Below, piece after piece: positions 1 to 14,705 of a DNA stretch of 14,718 bases (position 1 is the stretch's first letter; the number at the start of each line of letters is the position of its first letter). The stretch comes from an uncultured bacterium. GTDB lineage: Bacteria; Patescibacteria; JAEDAM01; Absconditabacterales; Absconditicoccaceae. The stretch is from positions 1 to 14,718 of the forward strand of contig CAIVDB010000105.1 in assembly GCA_903904545.1 (NCBI GenBank), given 5' to 3'. The notes below the pieces were generated by a model. That model searched no databases. It saw nothing but the letters and a program-made list of their open reading frames with translations, and had not been told where the DNA came from. A program made the translations under genes and the position numbers.

Positions 1-301
1 GGCACTTTTCAAGCTTTTTTTTTATAATTGCCTTTGAAATATTTTACATTTTTATGGAATTAAATATCTACTAAATAGAATTTAAGTTTTAAATATAGGT
101 TCACTGTAAAATTTAAAGCATTTATAAATTTGTATAAAATATAAAGCAAATTAAAAAAAAAGTTTAAATATCGCTGCTTGTTTGCTGAGCACCATTTATT
201 ATGTGCGCAAATGGTCTTCGATTTGAATAATCTCTTCTTCTTCGACTAAAATTTAAATAAGTTTAGCAAGTTTTAACCAAAATTAAACTTAATAAAGCAT
301 A
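1..301. other. AT-rich non-coding stretch downstream of the giant gene
   Basis: I see no convincing gene here under code 25 or the standard code. On the minus strand there is an inverted repeat at 191-197 and 209-215 (ACCATTT/AAATGGT, 11-nt loop). A run of nine A on the plus strand (153-161) would be a U-run in a minus-strand transcript, but it lies about 30 nt beyond the hairpin, too far for a standard intrinsic terminator. Termination of the giant gene may occur here, but I cannot assign a site. A short acidic minus-strand reading around 200-255 has no start codon and is bounded by stops. Confidence 0.5.
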
Positions 302-3300
302 TTACGTATTCATCGTTGGTTGGGTGTCTCTAGTTGGCACTTCATTTATTGTATCCACATTAGTATCTGATTTGGGGTTAGATGATTCATTTGATAATCT
401 CGAATTACTTTGCGATGTGTAGAGTTGATTGACATCGGCTCCTGTTGTAGATAGAAAGGTAAACGGGTCAGGATCTTTGTTGAGTATATTGTCTATCTGT
501 CCGATGTAATTGTTGGTATTGTATGAAGGGATACTTAAGATTCATACTCCGCCTCCTGTATATCATACATTGTTTGCTTGGTGGAGCAATCCTGTTCCAT
601 AAGTAAAATCTACAAACATATCTCCAGTTATTATTTTATTATCTCTATTAGTTGTTGATCGATTATTTCCATTTATAAAATATTGTCCACTACGATTTAT
701 CGGATTTGCGATATATGGATAATCTATAGCTCAATTGACGTCTAGTGTCCCTGCTGATCGATTGCTTCAACTTATATTAGTATCTGTGGCGTTCCCTGGT
801 ACCATTACTCATCATCATGTGATGAGATTTGATGTTCCACCATTTTTGTTGCTAAACATCTTTAAGGTGCCGTAATACGTTCCAGAACTTCATGCAGTTA
901 GCCAGATTCATTGTATGCTATTATTATATAATCGAGTATCATTGATGATATTATTTGTTGTATTCCCCTCCATCTTTATTCCATATCGTAGATTATTGTA
1001 ACTTTGTATATTGTTGATGAGATTATTTCCTCCTCCATTGATATCAATTCCGTGAAATCCATTATTGTATACTAGAGTATTGCTTATCACATTGTTGTAA
1101 GAGACATCTATGGATATTCCTATGCTATTGTTATTGAATACTTGTGAATTTATGAGATAGTTCTTACTTCATGGATTTGTTCAATAAATGCTATATCATT
1201 GTAAAGAACTTGAATAGAATAATGAGTCTATGGTTTCTATATTATTTGTTCAGACTATTGAGGTATTTACTTTGTTGTTGAAGGCATGGATTCTATAGAG
1301 TGTTCAGTTGGTTACGTTGTAGAGAGATATTCACTTTGCATTGCCTGAACCTATAGAGGCTCCTCATGGAGTAGCACTACGTAATTGTCCTGATCCATTG
1401 TTTAATCCATCAATTTTCAAATTGTCTATTATGACGTTCTTTCTATTGGTCGCTTGTAGCATTATCCCTATTGCAGTGTCTCCAGCACTATAGAGGTAGA
1501 CATCTCATTTTCCAATAATAGCGATACAATTCCCACTAAAATCTATGGTGTTGGACATAATATATCTTCCTGGATCTAGAACGTAGATTGTATTTGCTGC
1601 AAGTCCTAGTGGTAAACTATCTATTCCGCTGGTATCGAAATTTGAGATATTGAGAACATTCATTGACCAGATATTACAATTTCCTGTCCAGTGTCTCGTG
1701 TAAGCTGTGGTATCGGTCCCCCCTGTCCCATTCCCATTTCCATCTCCGAAAAGAGCATTAATGATTTGTCCACTTGTCGGATTTGTATTCCAGAAAGATT
1801 TATTGATAAAATTATCATTGTCTCGCGTGTTACTTGTCGATACATTTTCTTGGATTGTAGTTATAGAGAAATTGGAGCTTCTTTCGCCTATATTTACTGT
1901 CCCCATTCTTATAGTATAGTAATTTGCACTTGCACTCATAGCAATAGAGAACTGATCTCCATTAGCTCCCGTTCCATTTGTTCCTATATTAATCCCATTT
2001 TTGTAGAGTGTTCCCCGTCATGAGATGTTGATGGTATTTGAGACTCCATTTGACATTCCCGTTAGAGTTATAATGTTGGACGTGTAAAGTTGGTTGCGAG
2101 TAGCGTCATATATTGGAGTAAATACAAATTGATCAGGATCAAGGTCTTCTGTCGTCGTTATTGTAAATGTACTGGATTGTGTTCCCATAAATAATTGAGC
2201 TGCCTTTGTCTCACTATAATTAGTACTTCCTGTCATAGCGATATAAAATTGATCTCCATTGCTACCTGTTCCTTCCGTGCCTATATTTATATTGTTTTTA
2301 TACAATATACTATCATTTCAAGAAAGGTAAATGATAGTATTTAATCCTGCCGACATGCCAGTGATGTTAATGATATTTGATGTATATATCTGATTACGTG
2401 TGGCTCAGGTAATGATATCTACATTAAATGCCCTTGGGTTCCTATCCGTTGGGTAGTAATCTCACCATTCTATATTTATGAGTCCGCTATTTATATTTTC
2501 CGAATGGAAACTAAATATTCCTGTCTGATACTGTATATTGGTGATATTCGCATTTGTTCATCCTACAAGTAATGTAAGTGATTTTCTTCTTAGATTATCT
2601 TCTAGATTACTTGTATCTAAATTTATAATAAGTTGATTTCCACTAATGGTAGTAGCTACTTCTGTTTCCTGTTTACTTGCAATATATTCGTATACTTCCT
2701 GAGGTCATGCTACCCAAACTCTATCAGATCAATTCTTCCCATAGGTATTTGAAATATGATCTATAAGATATTTCCATTTTGTCCGTGATATACTGCCAGT
2801 TAGACCTCAAGCAAATTTTACACTATGAGAAAAAGATTGTCTTGATACTTTTGTAGTTGCGTTTGCTGCGTTCATGAGTGTATCAATGTCTGTTATCATT
2901 GTTCCTGTGGTAAATCCATCATCAACATAATATTCTCTATGAAAGAGCAGATGATTGAGATCTATGGTATTATATATATTTATTCCATCTGGGTATGCTG
3001 CAGTCCCCTGAGAAGATACTGACTTATATCATAGATCTCGTGCTGGCTGTGTATATCAGGTGTCTCCAGAAGGAAGAATCACATGGGTGAGCATAGCACC
3101 AGATATCCCTATACGTTCTTGAAATCGAGTATTTGCTTTTTCTAGTTCGTATCTGTAGTCCAATCCTGTCGTCCCTGGAGGATTGTCTGGATAATTAAAG
3201 AGTTCTCCAGATGCCGGATAAGCGCTTGATGTTCGTCAGTGGTTTACTACATCCCATCCATTGAGATATGTTTCCCTGAGTTGTGTTCGTGTCATGTATG

Positions 3301-6300
3301 CAGGCGTAGTATAGTGGAGATCTGAAAAAGAACGATTTACAGAATATCGTGCATATCATCATCTGAATGCAATATCATTTCCTGCTCCATCGGTAGAATA
3401 GACTCATGGTGCTATAAAATTAACGTTTTCTCATGATACTCTTCCTCCATTGAAATATTGAAATACAGGTTGATATCACCCAATACCCCCATCGTCGATG
3501 ACCCAACCATAGGCTAGATCTTTATTGTATTTTATGGGTGCTTTAGTTATGACCCCCGTAGTTATATTTTGATCAAAAGTAATGATTATTTGTTTTGGAT
3601 AATTGATTTTGAAACTAGCACCCGTGCTATTGCCTGCCGTGTCTGTTACGGTGAAAACATAATTTCATTCATTACTTATGCTTGTCCCACTGATATAATC
3701 TCTTCCGTTGAGCGTTGCTCCTGAGAGGTTATCATCTCAAAAATAAATAACTATCTGATTCCCATATGTTGTTCAACTACTTACTCATGTGAATGTGGGT
3801 GGAGTAATGTCTTGTTTTGTTGTTACAGAGAAACTTCATGATGTTGGGCTTAATGTTGGTCCTATTTGTAATAGCACTGTCTTTGTACTTAAATATGTGC
3901 TACTCCCTGTAATAGTAATATAAAATTGATCTCCGTTGGCTCATGTATAGTCTGTCCCTATGTTGATTCAGTTTTTGTAAAGTATTCATTGTCCCGTTGC
4001 TGTTCCACTTGCAATTACTCAATTACTCATCCCTGTAAGTGTAACTATGTTTGAGGTATAGAGTTGATTGGGCTCTGCCCCAGTTATAGACACAAAAATA
4101 AATTGACTTGGAATATTTGAACTTGTGGGATCTTGTTTTGTTGTAACAGAGAAATTTGCCCAATTTGCTCCCCCATAAAATGTTGAGTTTCTTATTGTAT
4201 AGTAATCTGCACTTCCTGTGATCGCTATATAAAATTGATCTCCATTCTTTCCAGTTCAATTGGTTCCTATATTTATTCAATTCTTGTAGATAGCTCACCG
4301 TCCACTTAAGGAGATGACTGTATTTATTCAACTATACATGCCACTCAGTGTGATAATGTTTGACGTATAAAGCTGATTGATTTCTGCACTTATGATTGGA
4401 GAAAAGGAGAAACTATTGGGGTCCTCATCGACAGCATCAATCTGTGCAATATACTTATTACTTATATAAGGAAAGTTTCCTAGTATTAATAAAGATCAAC
4501 TATATCTTACTGTCCTTGTTTGTAAAATTATTCCTGTTCCATAAGTAAAATCTATGAAATCTTGCCCTGTATAATCTTTTCTTCCTCTCCCTGCTGTTGT
4601 TCGACTAGTCCCTGTTATAATGAGTGATCCTATTTCTGTGACTACATTCGTAATATAATTGTGTCACATAGTTCCTCAAGTGTTTAGGTTTCCTGTTGCT
4701 CGATTGAATCCACTTATACTATCATCTGTAGGATACCCTATAAATATCCCTGTTCATGATGCATTATTATTTGCTGCAGCATTATTAGTGTTTCCAAATA
4801 ATCTTAAATCCCCATAATACTTATTTCATGTTGCACCTGCACTTGAAGATATTCCATTGGTATTATTGTTATATGATCGAAGATTGTACATAATGTTATT
4901 TGCAGTGCCTCATTTGATAAACACCCCTGCAAAGAGATTGTTATATGTTTGTGTATTGAGTATCATATTATTCCGCCCTGTATCTATAACTATTCCATAG
5001 AAATTGTTGTTGAATGTCTGACAATTTTGTATCGTTGTGTAATATGTTCTACTTAAAGATATTCAAGCCCCTTTATTGTTGAATGCTAGGGTGTTTACTA
5101 TATTTCCGTTATAAGAACCGTATAGATATATTCCGTCGGAATATGTGTTGTAGATTATGCTGTCAATAATATTTATATTTCTTGAATTTGATATATTTAT
5201 ACCATTTCTATTGTTGTATGTTTGTACATGATGGAGTGTTATGTTCTTACTATCATATAAAAATATTCCATCACTGTTTCCTGAAGCAATATTACCTTCG
5301 AAACGGATAGTACCGTCTTCATTCTTTATTCCATCAATTTTCACATTTGCTATAATAATATTATTTTTACTATATGTCTTTAATGTGGCTGCGTTTATTA
5401 GTCTTTGATCTGTGTATAGTGTGGTTTCACCTTTAGCTATAATTGCACTACAGTTTCCATTGAACACTATTCAAGTCGATCCGTTGGATATGATATATCC
5501 TCAGGCCTCTAATACATATATTGTGTTGGCTAATGGATTTAATGGCATACTATTAGCTCCACTGTTGTCATAATTTTGGATATATTGAACATCCATACTT
5601 CCTGTGTTACAATTACCTGTTCGTCATTGTGTATATGCTGTTTTATCATTTCCTCATAAACCATCTCCAAATAGTGCCGTAATGATTTCTCCTGTTGTTG
5701 GGTTTGTATTCCAAAATGAGCTGTCAATAAAATAATCATTGTTTCGTGTGCTTGTACTAATATCATTCTGAATTGTGGTTACTGATCGTGATCATGATAT
5801 AGCTCATATTGTTATTGTCCCTATTCTGGTTGTATAAAAATTTGTACTTCCTGAGATTTCAAGATATATTTGATCCCCATTTGCTCCTGTTCATGATTGT
5901 CCAATATTTATACCATTTTTATAGAGAACTCATCGTCATGATAGTTGAAGTATATTTGATATCCCATTTCACATTCATGTCAGAATAATAATATTTGAGG
6001 TATAGAGTTGATTTATTTGTGCATCAACAATGGGAGTGAATACAAATTGATCTGGATCGTTCTCATTGTCTGTTGTTACAGAGAAAATACTTGATTGTTG
6101 TCCTATGATGAGTTGGGCATTTTTTGTTTCTGTGTCATTATTACTTCCCGTCATTGCGATATAAAATTGATCACTATTAGCTCCTGTGCCTCAAGTCCCT
6201 ATATTAGCTCCATTTTTATATATTTTTGCACTTGCTCAAGAAAGGTAAATGATGTTGTTTAGCCCTGGTGACATACCAGTGAGTGTAATGATATTTGAAG

Positions 6301-9300
6301 TATAGAGTTGGTTGCGTATTGCTCAGCTTATTGTATTTAAGTTGAAATTATCGGGGTTTCTATCTCATAGATAATAATTTCCCATTTCTATATTGATCAA
6401 TCAACTATCCTTATTTTCTGAATGGTAAGTAAATAATCCTGTCTCGTATTGTATGTTTATTATATTCGCATTTGTGCCAGTTATTATCAAACTTAATGCT
6501 CTTCTTCTTAAATCAGTATCTACATCTAAAGTATCTAAATTAATAATAAGTTTATTTCAGCTGATACTTGTCTCTATTTTTGATTTTTGTTTCATTGTAA
6601 GATATTCGTAAGTTTCTTGCCCTCATGCAAATCGCACTCTATCTGATCATCATTTTCCATATGTCGAATATATATGATCTACGAGATATTTTCGTTTTTC
6701 AAATCCTATATTTCCATTTAGATTCCCTGTGAATGCAATCCTATGAGAAAAGGCTTGTCTTCGTAGTTTACTTGTTTCATTTGTTCTATTCATTAGATCG
6801 TCAATATCTACAATCATACTTCATGTTGAGAATCCATCATCATAATAATATTTCCTGTTTAGTTGAAGCTGATAGAGATTTATGTCTGTATAGATATTGA
6901 GTCATGATGATCAGTTAGCTATTCATTGTGCACTTACTGATTTATATCCTGAAGCAAATCCTGGTTGTGTATATCCAGGATCTCCTGAAGGAAGAATGAT
7001 ATGACTTAAAAATATTCCTGATAATCCTATGCGATCTCTTACATATTCGTAGTTCTTTATCAATTCATAGGCATAGTCTAGTCCTGTAGTCCCTGGAGGA
7101 TTGTCTGGGTAGGCATATGTTTGCCCTGATGAAGGATACGCTGAACTACTTCGTCCATGATTGAAAATATCCCAACCATTGAGATATGTTTCTTTTAAAT
7201 TATCTCGCGTCATATATGATGGAGTGGTATAATGAAGATCATAAAAACTTGAATTTACTGCATATCGCGCGTATCCTCATCTAAATGGGACATCATTGCC
7301 TGCGCCATCAGTGAAATATAATCCAGGAGCAATGAAACGATTGTTCCATCCTGATATTTCTCCTCCATTGAGATATTTGAATCCTGGCTGATATCCCTCA
7401 ATAAGCCCATCATCAACAACTCGACCATATGCTACATCTTTATTGTATTTTAAAGGTGCCTTTATTACAATTCATGTCGTTATTTCCTCATCAAAAGTAA
7501 TGGTGATTGTTTTTGGAATGCTTATTCTAAATGTTGCTCCTGTTGTGTTGCCTACACTGTCAAACACAATGAACGTGTATACTCATTCTGCAGAAATGAT
7601 CGTCCCTCCTGTGTAAGGTGTCTCATTGAGTGTTGCTCCAGATAGATTTTCATCGCTGAAAAATATTTGCACTTGTTCACTGTACGTTTCTCATGAAATG
7701 ATCCCTGTAAATGTTGGTGGTGTTATGTCTTGTTTTGTTGTTATACTAAACGTTCCCTCTTTGTCTCATATCCTTAAAGTCCCTGAGATTGTTCTGAAAT
7801 ATTCAGGGCTACTTGTTAGACTGATGTAAAATTGATCATCATTACTTCCTGTTATTTCTCATTCTATCTGAGATCAATTTTTATAAAACATTCCTGTGTT
7901 ACTTATTGTCCCTGTTGCAATAGCTCATATGCTCATCCCAGTTAGTGCGATACTGTTGGATGTGTAAATCATATTTCTCTCTGCTCCAGTTATATTATTA
8001 AATGAGAAAGAGCTCGGATTTGCATTAAAATCTGGGTTGTTTTTTGTTGTTACAGAAAATGTACTTTGTGTTATCCCTGCTTGAAAGTATCCGTATCTTA
8101 TCGTGAAAAAATTAGCACTTCCGGTGATTGCTATGTAAAATTGATCTCCATTTGATCCTGTTCCTCATGTGCCGATCTGTATTCCGTTTTTATATATCAA
8201 TCCCCATCATGTTAGATTTACTCTTGTTGTGTATCCGCTTTCGATCCCTGTGAATGTAATAATGTTGGATGTATAGAGTTGATTTGTTTCTGCTTCTGTA
8301 ATTGGTGTAAAGGAAAAATAATCAGGATCTGTGCTAAATACCTCTAGTTCTCAAATATATTTGCTAGTAGTATATGGGATATTTGACTGGTTCAAGAGAC
8401 TTCCAAAATAGGCTATTGGTATCGTTTGATAAAAAATTCATGTTCCATAAATGAATTGTATAAAATCTTGTCCAGTATAATTCTTTCTTCATCTGTTTGT
8501 TGTGCTTCGATTTGTTCCTGTTGTTATAAATGAGCCGTTTTGAGCTATCGCATTTGTGATATAATTATATCACATAACTCCTCCTGTTTCCAAGGTTCAG
8601 CTAGATCGATTTAATCAACTTATATTTGTGTCAGAAGGGGATCCTATAGATATTCCGGTTCACTCTAGATTGTTGTTTGTTGCTGCATTGTTGCTATTTT
8701 GGAATATTTTTATTGTCCCATAATATTTATTCCCTGTAGCTCAGACACTTGAAGCAATTCAGTTTGTACTGTTGTTATAAAGTTGTGAATTGTGTATGAT
8801 ATTATATGATGAACTTGTTTTTAAATATATTCAAGCTCGTGAGTTATTATAGGATTGTGTATTTGTTATTACATTATTTCCTCAACTATCGATATTTATT
8901 CCATAAAAAGAATTATTGAATACTTGTGAGTTGCTTATCGAGGCATAGGAAGTCCTTCCCATGGCTATTCAAGCATCTTTGTTGTTGAATATAAGACAAT
9001 TGTTTATGGAAATTTTGTTTCATGCGTATACATATATTCCGTTCGATGAACTATTGTATGTTATACAATTATTTATGCTAACATTTATAGATGATTCTAT
9101 ATCTATTCCATATTTATTATTGTATGTTTGCGCTTTATTTATACTTGAATTCCTTGTATTATACATATAAATTCCATAATTATTCCCTGAACTTATATTT
9201 CATTCAAAACGGATTGTTCCATCGCCATTTTTTATCCCATCAACTCTTACATTGTCTATGATCAAATTATTTTTATTTAATGATTTTAGTGTCGCTCCAG

Positions 9301-9742
9301 TTCAAAGTCTTTGATTTGTATACAGTGTTGGTGTCCCTTTCCCTATCACTGCTATACAATTCCCATTCATTAATATTTGATTTGAACTAATATATTTTCC
9401 TGGCGAAAGGATATAAATGGTATTCGCTTCAAGGATCTGAGGTATACTATCTATCCCACTTGTATCATAGTTTTGTATGTACTGAACATTCATGGTTCCA
9501 GTTTCACAAAGCCATTCCCGTCACTGTGTGTATGCTGTTTTGTCGTTCCCTATGGTCCCATCTCCAAAAATAGCAGTGATGATTTCTCCTGTTGTAGGAT
9601 TGTTATTCCAAAAAGATTTATCCAGAAAATTATCATTATTTCGAGAAAAATTATTGTCGAATGCTCGCAATCATCTGATCGTTATTATGAGGGAAATTAG
9701 AATTCCTCAAAATAAAATTCTTTTTCGTGATTTCTTCATCAT
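302..9742 (-). CDS. Giant secreted multidomain surface protein (3,146 aa) with beta-helix, Ig-like and polysaccharide-deacetylase-like modules; code 25
   Basis: Reading TGA as Gly gives one frame from ATG 9742 to TAA 302-304. I scanned it codon by codon and found no TAA or TAG and about 105 TGA. An in-frame TAA at 9752-9754 fixes the start at ATG 9742 or the adjacent ATG 9739. Residues 1-27 form a signal peptide: MMKKSRKR, then a hydrophobic core with two TGA-glycines (G12, G24), ending LRA. Each module runs: SFWN..PTTGEI segment; pectate-lyase/NosD-like beta-helix rich in YNN and GI (roughly 147-340, 1448-1650, 2765-2958); two Ig-like repeats of ~100 aa (DPD.F.F..LYTSN..TLTG..YKNG..NGDQF..FSVTT); a DITPPTFTG Ig domain (about 669-749, 1972-2051); a NodB-like region (about 758-1051, 2066-2354); two more YTSN repeats. 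The last copy stops inside its first YTSN repeat and ends in a hydrophilic tail. I see no sortase motif, C-terminal membrane helix or dockerin. A host-contact or glycan-binding role is inferred only. Confidence 0.9.
305..1792 (-). repeat. Partial module copy C of the giant gene (residues 2651-3146)
   Basis: The third copy keeps the SFWN segment, the beta-helix and the following linker. It breaks off just after DPDPFTF..NQLYTS, the opening of the first YTSN repeat. A tail of about 40 residues rich in Ser, Asn, Thr and Asp follows and does not match copies A or B. It carries three consecutive TGA codons at 809-817. The truncation point suggests loss or non-duplication of the Ig and deacetylase parts, with a new C-terminal end. 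Confidence 0.8.
1793..5713 (-). repeat. Module copy B of the giant gene (residues 1344-2650)
   Basis: This second full copy has the same domain order as copy A and a period of 3,921 nt (1,307 codons). YTSN motifs lie near 4358-4378, 4048-4070, 2372-2395 and 2072-2094. The deacetylase-like region is near 3545-2680. Many Gly codons are TGA here where copy A has GGN, and the reverse, which is internal evidence for the codon reassignment. Example: the YKNGIN motif uses TGA at 3968-3970. Confidence 0.85.
5714..9610 (-). repeat. Module copy A of the giant gene (residues 45-1343)
   Basis: This is the first full copy of the tandem module, measured from the Trp codon of the SFWN motif to the same codon in copy B (3,897 nt, 1,299 codons). 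Order: SFWN/TAYTQ segment, beta-helix, KYYG..F linker region, YTSN repeats near 8262-8285 and 7957-7975, DITPPTF Ig domain near 7735-7495, deacetylase-like region near 7470-6590, YTSN repeats near 6290-6310 and 5990-6012. The module resembles copy B in protein and more loosely in DNA, so the duplication is not recent. Confidence 0.85.
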
Positions 9743-9873: not shown

Positions 9874-10602
9874 CTATACTTGTCATAATAGCTTATTTAT
9901 GATATCTATAGCCTGCTTTTGGTCTATAAAGTATGGCGATGTTGCTATAGTAATTATTTCTGCATGGGAAATTAGTTGCTGGATAATTTTTATATCATCT
10001 TGAGTAATTTCTTTCCCTTCTCGAAAATCAATATCTAGATCCAAAATAAAATTTAGAATTCAGAATTCAGAATTCAGAATTGAATGAAGTGCTGTATCTG
10101 TTCTGATTTGGATGACATCATTGATTATTCAGGAATTGATTGCTGCGGGGATGAAATTGCCTACATTGGTCTTGGTGTTGACGAAGGCTTGGATGTCTGG
10201 AATCGGGAATCAGGAATCAGGAATCGGGAATCTATTTCCATTGGGTTTCATATCGGAGTGTTGATCGATATGGATTAAGTTAAAAGGTTCTGAAGGTTGA
10301 GAATGTTTCGAATGTTGGTGATTGTATCGAAAAGACAGTGCGTGATTGTGGTTATCTACAATGAAGATAGGTTTGCCGTGGTAGTCGAGCTGAACGAAAT
10401 TTTTGAGTCAGATACAAGATGTTTTTTTCCCGTTTACTATCTCTTCAAAACATATTTCTGAACCTCTTTGGAGGTCGGTTAAGCTTCCTTGTATTAGGCT
10501 TGGAACGTATATTTTCCCTGTGGATCAAAGTGCTCTTCTTTGTTGGTAAGAAAATTCATTATTGCCAATGGGATCTGATATATATAGGGGAGTGGAATAC
10601 AT
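9874..10602 (-). CDS. UPF0489-family (arginase/deacetylase-fold) protein, 242 aa; code 25
   Basis: Reading TGA as Gly gives a frame from ATG 10602 to TAG 9874-9876 with six in-frame TGA (residues 26, 65, 131, 158, 181, 240) and no other stop. The sequence has the sign-posts of UPF0489, a family with the arginase-type metal site: IVDNHNHAL (81-89), LIHIDQHSD (109-117), VGNFIPAAI..GII (148-160) and ILDLDIDF (186-193), then a helical end with ITIATSPYFI. The His/Asp residues H85, H87, D113, H115, D117, D188, D190 and D192 are the candidate metal ligands. Known relatives include peptide arginases that turn Arg to ornithine; the substrate here is unknown. Two heptanucleotide arrays lie inside the gene and translate as FPIPDSGFPIPD and ILNSEFGILN between conserved blocks. 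Under the standard code the gene is invisible. The family call rests on motif recall. Confidence 0.75.
10055..10081 (-). repeat. Heptanucleotide tandem array (AGAATTC, about 3.9 copies) inside the UPF0489-like gene
   Basis: On the plus strand the 7-nt unit AGAATTC repeats three times and then six of its bases repeat. Read on the minus strand it encodes ILNSEFGIL, including one TGA-Gly, just before the conserved ILDLDIDF block. Three units equal seven codons, so a change of one unit would shift the frame. Confidence 0.9.
10199..10232 (-). repeat. Heptanucleotide tandem array (GGAATCR, about 4.9 copies) inside the UPF0489-like gene
   Basis: On the plus strand the unit GGAATC(G/A) occurs nearly five times. 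Read on the minus strand it encodes the peptide repeat FPIPDSGFPIPD with a TGA-Gly in the middle, between the HIDQHSD metal motif and the VGNFI block. Its period and core (GAATC) match the array at 10055-10081, suggesting the same slippage process. Confidence 0.9.
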
Positions 10603-10920
10603 GGTTCTTATTAATGTTAAATGCGTAATGCTAAATGTTTAATTATGGAGTCTTTTTGAATTAAGAATTTAGAGTTTGGCGGTAAGAAGTAAATTAAGAA
10701 TTTATAGGTCAGAGTTAAGAGGTGAGTTTTTAATTTAGGGTCTAGAGTTCAGAATTCTGCACTCAATTTTTCTTTACTCAACTTATCACACATACTTTTA
10801 AATCCTTAACTCAACTCTGCCCACCTAATGCAGCACACTTAACTCAACTCTGCCCACCTAATGCAGCACACTTAACTCATTATACATTATTCATCTTCTA
10901 TTATCAATCAAAAAAATCAC
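10603..10920. other. Repeat-rich intergenic region between the divergent UPF0489-like and metK units
   Basis: I see no gene here on either strand under either code. The region holds short repeats: AATTAAGAATTTA at 10659-10671 and again at 10692-10704, a TAGAGTTCAGAATTC stretch at 10743-10757 that resembles the array inside the neighbouring gene, and a 33-bp direct repeat (separate entry). The UPF0489-like promoter should lie here on the minus strand, but I cannot point to a convincing match. Confidence 0.6.
10805..10879. repeat. 33-bp direct repeat, two perfect copies plus a partial third
   Basis: The unit beginning CTTAACTCAACTCTGCCC and ending GCAGCACA runs 10805-10837 and is repeated exactly at 10838-10870. 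A third copy starts and stops after CTTAACTCA (10871-10879). The copies are adjacent with no spacers, so this is a tandem duplication, not a CRISPR array. A looser related stretch may precede it at about 10772-10804. Confidence 0.9.
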
Positions 10921-10948
10921 TTGAATCTTCTTTTGAGATATGTACTAT
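10921..10948 (+). promoter_or_regulatory. Candidate promoter for the metK riboswitch leader
   Basis: TTGAAT (10921-10926) and TACTAT (10943-10948) are separated by 16 nt. Transcription would begin near 10955, only a few bases before the 5' strand of riboswitch stem P1 at 10959. This fits between promoter and aptamer strengthen both calls. Confidence 0.6.
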
Positions 10949-10958
10949 ATGTCTACTC

Positions 10959-11134
10959 GATATCCAGAGGAGTGATAGAGAATAGGCTCGTACCGTTCAT
11001 CGGTATAGTATCGACATCATAAAAACTTTCAGTAAAATTCAAGTTTTTATTGTGTCTCTACTATTAAACACTCCAGCAACCATTTCGGTCTAACCGGAAC
11101 AGGTGCTCCCTCCTACCCGCAAGGGAAAGATATT
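10959..11134 (+). ncRNA. SAM-I (S-box) riboswitch aptamer
   Basis: The aptamer core is recognisable and sits directly before metK. P1 pairs 10959-10964 (GATATC) with 11129-11134 (GATATT, one G-U). ATCCAGAG follows, matching the family's 5' junction. P2 pairs GGAGTG (10969-10974) with CACTCC (11069-11074), then TAGAGA (10976-10981) with TCTCTA (11055-11060). GCAACC (11076-11081) and GGTGC (11102-11106) form the P3 base (ACC/GGT), extended by TTTCGGT/ACCGGAA (11083-11089/11093-11099). P4 is CCC/GGG with a GCAA loop (11116-11125), followed by AAAGAT leading into P1. In this family SAM binding stabilises P1 and leads to termination. The P2 arm is unusually long (see findings). Confidence 0.85.
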
Positions 11135-11164
11135 CTCGAAAATCTATTTGATATTCTTTGATGA

Positions 11165-11195
11165 CTCTTTCTCTCGCCGAGAAAGGGCTTTTTTT
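11165..11195 (+). terminator. Intrinsic terminator forming the riboswitch expression platform
   Basis: CTTTCTC (11167-11173) pairs with GAGAAAG (11179-11185) around a 5-nt loop, followed by GGC and seven T. It lies between the aptamer and metK. AGGGAAAG (11122-11129), which is needed for P4 and the start of P1, can pair with CTTTCTCT (11167-11174), the 5' side of this terminator. That gives a plausible antiterminator when SAM is low, so metK would be repressed by its own product. Confidence 0.8.
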
Positions 11196-11246
11196 ATGCT
11201 GGTTATTGAACGAAATTACTTTTTTATTTTTTTATGAATAGAAACA

Positions 11247-12374
11247 ATGAGACATTTTATTACCTGTGAATCAGTAACGGAAGGACACCCAGATAAAATG
11301 TGTGACCAGATTTCTGATGCTGTTTTGGATGCGTGTTTGGCACAAGACCCCTTATCTAGAGTTGCTTGTGAAAGCTTAGCAACGACAGGAACGATCGTAA
11401 TTAGTGGAGAGATAACTACTAAGGCGACTGTAGACTACGAAGCTATTGCTAGAAAAACTGCTTTGGATATCGGATACGACGGAGATGAGAAATACTTTGA
11501 CGGAAAAACGTGTTCAGTAATTAGTTTTATCCATACTCAATCACCTGATATTGCTCAAGGAGTAGATACAGGTGGAGCAGGGGATCAGGGTATCATGTAC
11601 GGATACGCAACGAATGAAACCAAAAATTATTTACCTTTACCTATCGATCTTGCACATGAATTAGCTCGACAATTGACTAAGGTAAGAAAAGAAGGGACAC
11701 TCCCTTTTCTTTACCCTGATGGAAAAACTCAAGTAACGGTAGAATACGAAGAGCATACACCTGTAAGAGTAGATGCTGTGGTAGTTTCTTCTCAACATGC
11801 ACTTGATGTGACTCAAGAACAAATTGCAGCAGGTATCCATGAATTTGTGATTAATCCTGTCCTTGGAAGTCTTATAGATGCAAATACGAAGTTCTATATC
11901 AATCCTACAGGAATGTTTAATGTAGGAGGACCGGCTGGAGATACTGGACTTACTGGAAGGAAGATTATCGTCGATACGTATGGTGGAGTTGGGAAACATG
12001 GTGGTGGAGCATTTAGTGGGAAAGATCCTACAAAGGTAGATAGAAGTGGAGCATATATTGCAAGATATTTAGCTAAGAATATTGTAGCAAGTGGTGTCTG
12101 TGAAAGATGTGAAATCCAACTTGGATATGCCATTGGAGTACCACAACCTGTAAGTGTCTATGTAGATTGTTTTGGAACACAAAAAGTCGATCTTCAATCG
12201 ATCGTAGATGCAGTCAAAAATAACTTCGATTTGAGTCCAAAAGGAATTATTGAGAAGTTAAATCTTAGAAGACCAATCTTCCAAAAAACTGCTTCTTATG
12301 GGCATTTTGGTAGAGAAGGATTCTCTTGGGAACAATTGGATGCTGTGGATGTATTTAAGAAATTGATTGTTTAA
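11247..12374 (+). CDS. metK: S-adenosylmethionine synthase (methionine adenosyltransferase)
   Basis: The 375-residue product is a clear MetK, close to the usual 380-400. The enzyme makes S-adenosylmethionine from methionine and ATP in the cytoplasm, releasing phosphate and pyrophosphate, and usually works as a tetramer needing Mg and K. Visible signatures are TEGHPDK near the N-terminus (residues 11-17), [12 protein letters not shown] (110-121, the MetK hexapeptide signature), [12 protein letters not shown] (228-239) and [16 protein letters not shown] (252-267, the glycine-rich nonapeptide signature). The start at ATG 11247 matches the family N-terminus [14 protein letters not shown]; no strong Shine-Dalgarno is visible. 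The gene follows a SAM-I riboswitch and terminator and ends before its own terminator, so it appears to be a single-gene unit. None of its 38 glycines is encoded by TGA, unlike every other gene in the window. Confidence 0.98.
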
Positions 12375-12577: not shown

Positions 12578-13273
12578 ATGGTGAATTCATTACTCGCTTC
12601 AAAAGTTGATTCTTCCAATCTCACATCGCAAGATGATTTTGAAAATATAGAAAATAATGAAAGTGTTATTCATCAATCTTTGACAACAGTAGAGACAACA
12701 ACTCAATTACAAACACTTAAGCTTGCTACGACGGTACAAACGGCATTGAATGATGAACATGAAGATCAATCAAAATCAGAAAAAGAATCAGAAAAAAAAT
12801 CTTTGAATCAGAAAGAAATCCCTCATGAAAAGATTATAACTATGCAATTTGATGCGCTTTTTGATCTTTATAAAGACAAAGCGATTCCTCTAATTAGAAA
12901 ACATTTGTTGATAGAAATTAATAAGTTCAAAGAAAAAAATACATATACATCAAATTCTGTACTCCAGTGATTAGCTCAAGAACATGCAGATGATATGCAG
13001 AAGAATTCTTATTATAGTCATACCGATTTATTATGAAAATCTCCATTGGAGAGAGCTACTGGCAAGTATTCGTTTACAAGACTAACAGAAAATATGGTGC
13101 CTATCCATAGTAATATAGAGGGTATTATGTATTTGTTTGCAAACAGCACTTCTCATAAAAAGATATTTTCTGAAGAATTCAAAGAACTTGGAATTGGTAT
13201 CTCTCAGCGTACTCCCAATGGTACCTATTATGTAGTGGTAGATTATGCTCATCCTCTACCAGAAAAAAAATAA
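12578..13273 (+). CDS. CAP/SCP (YkwD-like) domain protein, 231 aa; code 25
   Basis: Two in-frame TGA (12968-12970 and 13034-13036) are read as Gly; the true stop is TAA at 13271-13273. An in-frame TAG at 12572-12574 limits the start to ATG 12578 or GTG 12581. The C-terminal half (about 105-231) is a CAP domain, the family of bacterial YkwD and eukaryotic CRISP/PR-1 proteins. It shows QEHADDM (134-140), YYSHTDLLGKSPLERA (145-160), TENM (170-173), STSH (190-193) and GIGIS..TYYVVVDYAHP. H148, E171 and H193 match the conserved cavity residues. Position 153, encoded by TGA, is the near-invariant Gly of SH.D..G.SP. The N-terminal half is Thr/Ser/Lys/Glu-rich with no recognised fold. I see no signal peptide, although most bacterial CAP proteins are exported. 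The molecular function of bacterial CAP domains is mostly unknown. Confidence 0.92.
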
Positions 13274-13277
13274 TTTC

Positions 13278-14705
13278 TTATATATTTACATATACTTTAG
13301 ATTTCTGATCTTCCAAAGTGGCATTTACTTTGGTATATTCTGTTAGAAGCTTGCTTATGGTGTCGACATAATTTTCTTTTCATTTATCCCCATTGCTGTT
13401 TTTCTTAAACTCTTGTAATGCAAGGAGATAGGAATTCATATCATTTCCAAGTGCTGGCATTTCCCAGACATCACTAGATTTCCCATTATTTTCAATTGTA
13501 CGTTGTTGGATACGAGTATCCTTTCTATCTATGAGAATCCAAGCTTCATTTAGTTGTCCAAAAGCTGTATTGCCTCCTTTTGTGTCTCATGAAAATCCTG
13601 GAATATTCCATTTGTTGAATGGTATATTATTTATCTGCACAATATTATTTCTGTTTTTATTGCTAATATCCAATCTTATAGCGCCTACATTATAATATCT
13701 GTTATCACTTCCCAAGACTACATAATTTATATTAAATCCTACCTTCACAACATTGAGTAAAGTTTCTTGATTTTTGGTAAGTGCCACAATTCCATCACTA
13801 TTTTCTGGAGATTCTATTATAATCCCTCATCCCGTGTAATTATCTCATTTCTTCTCTGTTCCTACTATTTGTGTTCCTGAAGTATCTATAGGATTTATTT
13901 TCATCTTAGCTAGATATCCTACTTGATCAGGACTTAATCATGCGATTTGCATCATAGCTCTGCTATAAGAAAATCCTTTATTTAAAATTGCTTGCTTTTC
14001 TTGTGGGGTTTTTCCTTGTACATTTAAAAAATTTGCATCAGGTAATTTGTTCTTTGGAAATCATTTGGCAATAAGTGTTCATCTTAATGTCTTGAACATC
14101 TGCGTGACTTTAGCTTCTCCTAACTGACTTACTCTTGTTGCATCCGCCTTTCCTATGAGCGTGAGCATGCAGGGAAGCTTTTTTTTGATAATCTCATTGA
14201 TCCCTTTAGAGATACTTTCTTGTCTGGATGGAGATATATCGATAAATTCACCAACTTTTTGTATCTCTTCTGTATTAGCAAACTCTGATTCGTCTCAGTC
14301 TTTTGGTGGTGTATTTGTAATTTCGTTTTTTTCTGCTTCAAACCTTTGTAAGAATTCATTGGTATTTATTAGTGGAGAATTTACATTCCTTTTGGTATTG
14401 TCTTTGAGTAAAAAAAGATTGTAGGTTAAAATAGCTAATTTAATATCTTGGCTAGATTTTTCCATCAACTCCTTCATGATCATATGACCATCTCCATTTT
14501 GGCGGAGATTGTTGATATTCGCAAGGAGAATATTTTTGTTCGTTGTATATTCTTGTTTTTTCTTTGCATCAATTTCATCAAGTTTATTTCCTACTTGAGT
14601 GTTTTTGTTCGGGTCTTTTGCTAATTTTTCAGTTTGTTCTTGAAACTCAGCAGTTGCTGGTGTATCAGTATTCTCTTTGTATGCTTCTGGACCTTTTGGA
14701 GGCAT
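13278..14705 (-). CDS. Hypothetical protein, 475 aa, unrecognised; code 25
   Basis: Reading TGA as Gly joins several fragments into one frame from ATG 14705 to TAA 13278-13280. It has eight TGA (plus-strand positions 13380, 13587, 13827, 13845, 13938, 14061, 14079, 14295) and no other stop. I do not recognise a family. The N-terminal third (MPPKGPEAYKENTDTP, then Glu/Lys/Gln-rich stretches) is hydrophilic and likely helical. The middle (LPCMLTLIGKADATRVSQLGEAKV) is mixed. The C-terminal half (VKVGFNINYVVLGSDNRYYNV, then FNKWNIPGFSGDTKGGNTAFGQLNEAWILI) looks like a compact beta-rich domain. I see no signal peptide or membrane segment. The four codons between ATG 14705 and the window edge contain no stop, and no Shine-Dalgarno is visible, so the start could lie outside the window. 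The gene converges on the CAP-domain gene with a 4-nt gap and no terminator between them. Confidence 0.8.

Follow-up and report, generated by a model that had tools for sequence, protein, structure and literature searches.

The 14,718-nucleotide stretch of contig CAIVDB010000105.1 (assembly GCA_903904545.1) analysed here, which we call the window, raises the question of what is encoded in its largest region, positions 302 to 9742, where translation table 11 lists no minus-strand frame longer than 144 residues. Read with NCBI code 25, the minus strand of this region is a single frame of 3,146 codons that runs from ATG to a single terminal TAA. We propose, with about even confidence, that its product is a Sec-exported, multi-headed fibre of an Absconditabacteria-like cell that binds and deacetylates glycans. 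Absconditabacteria are presumed to live in dependence on other bacteria or as their predators. Accounts of their contact proteins rest largely on prediction, a task complicated by a genetic code that hides the genes. The present protein, probably exported, offers a catalytic head that can be identified and tested.

The gene is real and chance is excluded. With the expectation taken from base composition, the natural logarithm of the probability of zero TAA or TAG in 3,146 codons is -191, and the five remaining frames hold 85 to 222 TAA or TAG apiece. A single uninterrupted gene of more than 9.4 kb had been predicted from the sequence at this location. That prediction is borne out. It had left the strand unstated, and the strand is minus; the plus-strand reading in that register contains many stops. 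It had also missed that the protein is built of three repeat units, the third of them incomplete. Units 1 and 2 share 62% amino-acid identity over 1,296 aligned codons and 67% DNA identity, so duplication of the units in assembly is ruled out. Changes between them at codon positions 1, 2 and 3 number 399, 310 and 659, and 396 identical residues are encoded by differing codons. This third-position excess and the synonymous differences point to selection on the protein, under which the gene appears to have evolved.

In this gene TGA is read as glycine and, judged against related sequences, CGA and CGG are read as tryptophan, which is the code described for Absconditabacteria by Shulgina and Eddy (PMC8629427, in the portion available). 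The original prediction had assigned TGA correctly, but code 25 alone mistranslates 35 of the 51 Trp codons of the gene as Arg. Codon meanings were compared with 49 standard-code relatives of the two catalytic domains described below (49 of 53 loci; L001, L002 and L012 were omitted for in-frame TGA and L050 for a stop). At the 27 TGA sites, Gly makes up 34% of the relatives' residues, compared with 45% at GGN sites and a background of 8%. The 13 CGA/CGG sites carry 33% Trp and 0.2% Arg; sites of other Arg codons (n = 29) carry 0.4% Trp and 20% Arg, and TGG sites (n = 7) 50% Trp. In a profile made from the 49 relatives alone, TGA as Gly scores best of six meanings tried. For CGA/CGG in the same profile, Trp is the best of 20 residues at 677.2 bits, followed by Phe at 659.2, and it exceeds Arg (624.1) by 53 bits. 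Independently of that profile, reading CGA/CGG as Trp lifts the Pfam beta-helix score from 107.4 to 158.6 bits. Between units, the 49 ordered partners of CGA/CGG are CGA/CGG 32 times, TGG 6, Phe 5, Gly 2, Gln 2, Tyr 1 and Ser 1, and never another Arg codon. That plain code 25 applies, with CGA/CGG as Arg and the protein as first translated, is against this evidence extremely improbable. A weak counter-site in its favour is residue 141 of the neighbouring metK gene, encoded by CGA (window 11667-11669); its alignment column is variable and among 12 relatives shows Lys 4 times, Arg (AGA) 3, Asn 2, Tyr 1, Glu 1 and CGA 1. There are no tRNA genes in the window. CGA alone accounts for 30 of the 3,146 codons, about 95 per 10,000; in the aligned Pfam domains of every species covered by PMC8629427 the rate is below 37 per 10,000 codons, according to the available portion. 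This abundance only suggests an advanced stage of reassignment, and it describes a single gene, not a genome.

The three units span residues ~31-1330, ~1331-2637 and ~2638-3110. Units 1 and 2 have the same order: a right-handed beta-helix, two repeats of ~100 residues, a module named for its DITPPTFTG motif, a catalytic domain and two more repeats. Unit 3 consists of a beta-helix and the first residues of a repeat, followed by a Ser/Asn-rich tail and the TAA. The features, in order from the N-terminus, are as follows.

302 to 9742, minus strand: whole gene, 3,146 aa, with TGA as Gly and CGA/CGG as Trp
9662 to 9742, minus strand: predicted Sec signal peptide, residues 1-27, with a charged start and a hydrophobic core at residues 9-27
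8333 to 9640, minus strand: unit 1 right-handed beta-helix, residues 35-470 (PF13229, structure model of residues 28-480, our own hidden Markov model)
7727 to 8332, minus strand: unit 1, two NQLYTSN repeats of ~100 aa, putatively immunoglobulin (Ig)-like (alignment)
7538 to 7729, minus strand: unit 1 DITPPTFTG module, residues 672-735, found in both whole units
6362 to 7513, minus strand: unit 1 CE4 deacetylase domain within a beta-sandwich module, residues 744-1127 (D777, D778, H862, R963, H1000)
5759 to 6361, minus strand: unit 1, two further NQLYTSN repeats (alignment)
4427 to 5743, minus strand: unit 2 beta-helix, residues 1334-1772 (Pfam and our own hidden Markov model)
3803 to 4426, minus strand: unit 2, two NQLYTSN repeats (alignment)
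3623 to 3811, minus strand: unit 2 DITPPTFTG module, residues 1978-2040, found in both whole units
2444 to 3595, minus strand: unit 2 predicted CE4-type domain, residues 2050-2433 (D2083, D2084, H2168, R2269, H2306)
1844 to 2443, minus strand: unit 2, two further NQLYTSN repeats (alignment)
482 to 1822, minus strand: unit 3 beta-helix, residues 2641-3087 (our own hidden Markov model)
302 to 469, minus strand: break in unit 3, with the start of an NQLYTS repeat, an unrelated Ser/Asn-rich tail, the TAA and no recognised anchor

Each whole unit is predicted to contain a deacetylase of the type of BoPDA from Bacteroides ovatus. In the predicted fold of head 1 a CE4 barrel is inserted in a beta-sandwich module, the arrangement by which we recognise this type. 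Both units retain the Asp base, the metal Asp, one metal His, the acid His and a late Arg, which are conserved in most of the family; these roles follow PMC11713874, in the portion available. The second metal His of canonical CE4 enzymes is missing from both units (HGWSS and HGWTS), so neither has the His-His-Asp triad of NodB-type CE4 with its H(S/T)xxH motif. Across the family, His occurs at +4 in 6 of 55 domains. Against the 28.5-bit gathering cut-off of PF15421 (Polysacc_deac_3), unit 1 scores 17.8 bits, unit 2 in the plain code 25 translation scores 16, and the relative P0006 28.3. Within the catalytic-domain alignment, which holds the two window domains and 43 of 53 loci (L037, L038, L040, L041 and L047-L052 omitted), 40 of 45 members match PF15421 at E up to 0.1. 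Because it scores below the curated cut-off, we call the domain a structural relative of PF15421 and not a member.

The beta-helix is recognised by PF13229, and the fold also appears in a structure model of residues 28-480. That model was built from a 6-row alignment and has a mean pLDDT (predicted local distance difference test) of 66.4; the core is good and the part past residue ~358 is poor. It resembles many glycan-active beta-helices and the adhesin PfbA, a likeness that shows no function. An epimerase role was considered and rejected, as the likeness is in fold only. DPHE, which we take to be the catalytic motif of the mannuronan C5-epimerases AlgE and AlgG, has no occurrence in the 3,146-residue translation, nor does DPH. 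The eight whole NQLYTSN repeats found no convincing Pfam match and no PDB chain below E 0.8. Their best weak matches are DUF6727 (best E 0.01, 3 of 8 repeats), IceA2 (0.013, 1 of 8) and lectins in the PDB (E of at least 0.84). A DUF4369 match at residues 625-704, where a repeat ends and the DITPPTFTG module begins, reached 25.7 and 27.5 bits against a cut-off of 25 and was treated as uninformative; a DIP2311-like match was rejected with a score under its cut-off. A signal peptide at residues 1-27 is plausible, given that the strongest 19-residue hydropathy window begins at residue 9, and the N-terminal starts of the relatives P0006 and P0019 resemble it. Thus the hidden Markov model searches and structure prediction that had been recommended bore out the predicted beta-helices and the catalytic-looking domain, now CE4-type and in two copies. 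The signal peptide remains plausible; the repeats are present, and their Ig-like nature is a presumption with no family placed.

Two peptide patterns, run against genome contigs, located the BoPDA-like domain at no fewer than 52 loci, mostly in records named as Patescibacteria or Bacteroidota, with one named as Chlorobiota. Two protein searches, which scored 7,990 and 7,997 candidates, gave at least nine matches (among them P0006, P0007 and P0008) and at least six (among them P0019, P0020 and P0021, of 3,011, 4,387 and 3,867 aa); all these counts are lower bounds. The relatives are 1,057 to 4,387 residues long, several of them partial. P0006 (1,580 aa, partial) is by its NCBI name an Absconditabacteria protein from a metagenome-assembled genome, and metK of the window shares 82% and 81% identity with its two best matches among 49 genomes. 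By this name and this identity, the lineage is closest to Absconditabacteria. The homologue search that had been suggested succeeded. The original prediction knew of no protein with this domain order, and P0006, P0007, P0019, P0020 and L001 have it: beta-helix, repeats, CE4. P0019 and P0020 each have two beta-helices and two catalytic domains. P0021 has one beta-helix, one whole and one partial catalytic domain, many repeats and a borderline C-terminal SLH match (20.2 bits against a cut-off of 20.8). At 30 aligned CGA/CGG sites of the window P0006 has Trp 15 times and Arg 11 times, which suggests that public annotation (the NCBI record) reads these codons as Arg in this lineage. Translation with table 25 converts Trp to Arg in this way. 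In P0007, P0019, P0020 and P0021 many Gly sites appear to have been translated at source with TGA read as Trp, which makes the positions of these proteins in trees less certain.

The domain tree has 67 rows, namely 54 of 55 domains (all but L050) and 13 of 17 protein domains, from which we omitted the window duplicates, the fragment from P0021, and P0008, which we regard as identical to L002. Of the 12 rows presumed to be TGA-recoded, 11 fall in a single clade (100/100); the other, L012, whose match contains 25 TGA codons, groups with L004, a Paceibacterota record (98/94). The triad heads of P0019 and P0020 nest among dyad heads. Unit 2 of the window groups with P0021 (98/94) inside a group of the window and P0021 (98/96), so the duplication of units appears older than the split of the window from P0021; this should be taken with care, as P0021 is a long row translated with TGA as Trp. 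In the beta-helix tree units 1 and 2 pair weakly (84/81) and unit 3 stands apart. A phage origin was rejected: the sole relative on a viral contig, L053, is distant (30% identity) and the neighbouring genes look chromosomal. A scan with the single sequence confirmed no relative.

The 3' end calls for its own explanation. Unit 3 breaks inside its first NQLYTS repeat, and the final ~37 residues have no counterpart in the other units. The last 200 residues contain no LPxTG-like motif, and no other hydrophobic segment of the giant protein matches the first in strength. With no anchor found and a tail of unrelated sequence, a truncated allele or an assembly junction is conceivable. It is quite possible, though we would stop short of calling it probable, that the end is not native: the gene would be a truncated allele, or the contig would be joined to other sequence near 420, and the ancestral protein would have continued past unit 3 into further domains, as P0021 does. 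The relatives P0019, P0020 and P0021 continue to other C-terminal domains, in keeping with this account; against it stand the clean TAA and the absence of any listed frame that continues in the 301 bases downstream. A DNA search with window positions 1-450 against 49 genomes (up to 13 candidates scored per genome) gave no match in the tail. Six of the 49 genomes had matches of 24-79 bases, all at positions 5-296, in non-coding sequence.

The analysis shows the frame, the code, the repeat units, a predicted fold for head 1 and residues conserved in the two heads; we infer export, metal binding, deacetylase activity and action on extracellular polysaccharide. In the proposed fibre, each whole unit would have a stalk of beta-helix and beta-rich repeats and, as its working head, a BoPDA-type CE4 deacetylase set within a carbohydrate-binding module. 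This module would hold the polysaccharide, Asp778 and His862 (Asp2084 and His2168 in unit 2) would bind a divalent metal, and Asp777 (2083) as base and His1000 (2306) as acid would remove acetyl groups. Tandem repetition would provide each molecule with several binding and cutting heads, acting on polysaccharide outside the cell, most likely that of a neighbouring (host or prey) cell or its matrix. A host or prey cell, a shared matrix or the cell's own capsule may be the target; neighbour or matrix is ranked first because of the presumed lifestyle of the lineage and the giant attachment proteins proposed in Vampirococcus. A more specific version, in which some Absconditabacteria use such a fibre at the contact site to strip acetyl groups from a polymer of the host or prey envelope or matrix, is speculative and rather improbable. 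It would have two or more enzyme heads spaced along one molecule: dyads in the giant protein, and in P0019 and P0020 first a triad head and then a dyad.

Several observations count against the proposed fibre. Its catalytic family occurs in many Bacteroidota, so the domain does not imply host contact and is not restricted to host-dependent cells. Of 49 genomes from the order to which the L001 genome belongs, 3 match strongly and 2 others weakly, and with five of 49 matching, the giant protein is probably not universal in the lineage. The catalytic domain falls under the PF15421 cut-off, the beta-helix model has a pLDDT below 50 at residues 358-453, and the protein ends abruptly in unrelated sequence with no recognised anchor. 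BoPDA itself had no detectable activity on the substrates tested (PMC11713874, in the portion available), which also favours a mainly structural adhesin with CE4 domains as non-catalytic glycan-binding modules, as does the absence of the second metal His. We consider such an adhesin improbable: both units keep the base, the metal Asp and His, the Arg and the acid His, and the BoPDA paper describes CtAxeA, likewise a dyad enzyme, as active. Action on the cell's own capsule or exopolysaccharide, as a factor that remodels the cell surface, has a precedent in BoPDA, which is encoded in a capsule locus and for which that role was proposed (PMC11713874, same portion). It too is unlikely, if slightly less so, since none of the four other window genes examined (metK, a CAP-domain gene, a UPF0489-like gene and one of no known family) is a recognised capsule gene and BoPDA, as a stand-alone lipoprotein, differs in architecture from the giant protein with its repeats. 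As to what had originally been predicted, host or prey contact is not supported as stated; of a giant anchored surface protein, the signal-like N-terminus was observed and a C-terminal anchor was not found; and a giant, probably exported protein hidden by recoding is supported, in a lineage closest to Absconditabacteria.

The neighbouring genes are briefly as follows. Upstream of the giant gene on the same strand, after a gap of 131 bp, lies a gene for a 242-aa UPF0489 or peptide-arginase-like protein (9874-10602, minus) with two 7-bp tandem repeats inside. A perfect 33-bp tandem repeat of 2.3 copies (10805-10879) is intergenic, before metK. A long leader (10900-11250) precedes metK. By eye, part of it resembles what we take to be a SAM-type leader; Rfam gave no SAM riboswitch match, either for the window at the gathering score or for 10600-11300 at E up to 1. 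A CAP-domain gene (12578-13273, plus) adjoins a gene for a 475-aa protein (13278-14705, minus) with no Pfam or NCBIfam match.

As a kind, giant surface proteins have been reported before in Absconditabacteria. Among the literature matches listed, no abstract describes a tandem unit of beta-helix and BoPDA-type deacetylase, and none of these matches reports a giant fibre for contact with glycan deacetylase activity of its own. The available portions of PMC8080830, PMC8629427, PMC13092985 and PMC11713874 do not describe the giant protein or its relatives. The last of these states that the BoPDA protein and fold are unique to Bacteroides; the sequence relatives found here (L001-L052) are spread over Patescibacteria and Bacteroidota. 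The closest known system is BoPDA (BACOVA_03992; PDB 4dwe, 9d44, 9d4i, 9d5t and 9d60; PF15421). It shares with the predicted heads the CE4 barrel inserted in a beta-sandwich carbohydrate module, the Asp-Asp pair, one metal His, equivalents of Arg297 and the acid His337, and the absence of the second metal His. BoPDA is a stand-alone lipoprotein of ~499 residues, whereas the giant protein carries two copies, ~20% identical to it, in 3,146 aa. The relatives P0006, P0007, P0019, P0020, P0021 and L001 share the beta-helix, repeats and CE4-in-module, in one or two copies, but have other N- or C-terminal domains, and P0006 and P0007 are partial or cut. In P0019 and P0020 the first head has the canonical metal motif (HSLRH/HTLRH) and the second is a dyad, whereas both heads of the giant protein are dyads. 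Mannuronan epimerases of the AlgE4/AlgG type, grouped with tailspikes and PfbA among the closest known systems, have the DPHE motif that the giant protein lacks. Vampirococcus lugosii, an Absconditabacteria member, has giant membrane proteins of 1,392-4,163 aa linked to host attachment (PMC8080830, in the portion available), and secreted wall-degrading enzymes are reported for Vampirococcus. Its giants have in common with the present protein the size class, the UGA-as-Gly lineage and a presumed adhesive role at the surface. The domains named for them are WD40, 'TRP', PKD, saposin, DUF11, integrin, fibronectin and alpha-2-macroglobulin (PMC8080830, same portion), and the repeated unit of the protein described here is not among these.
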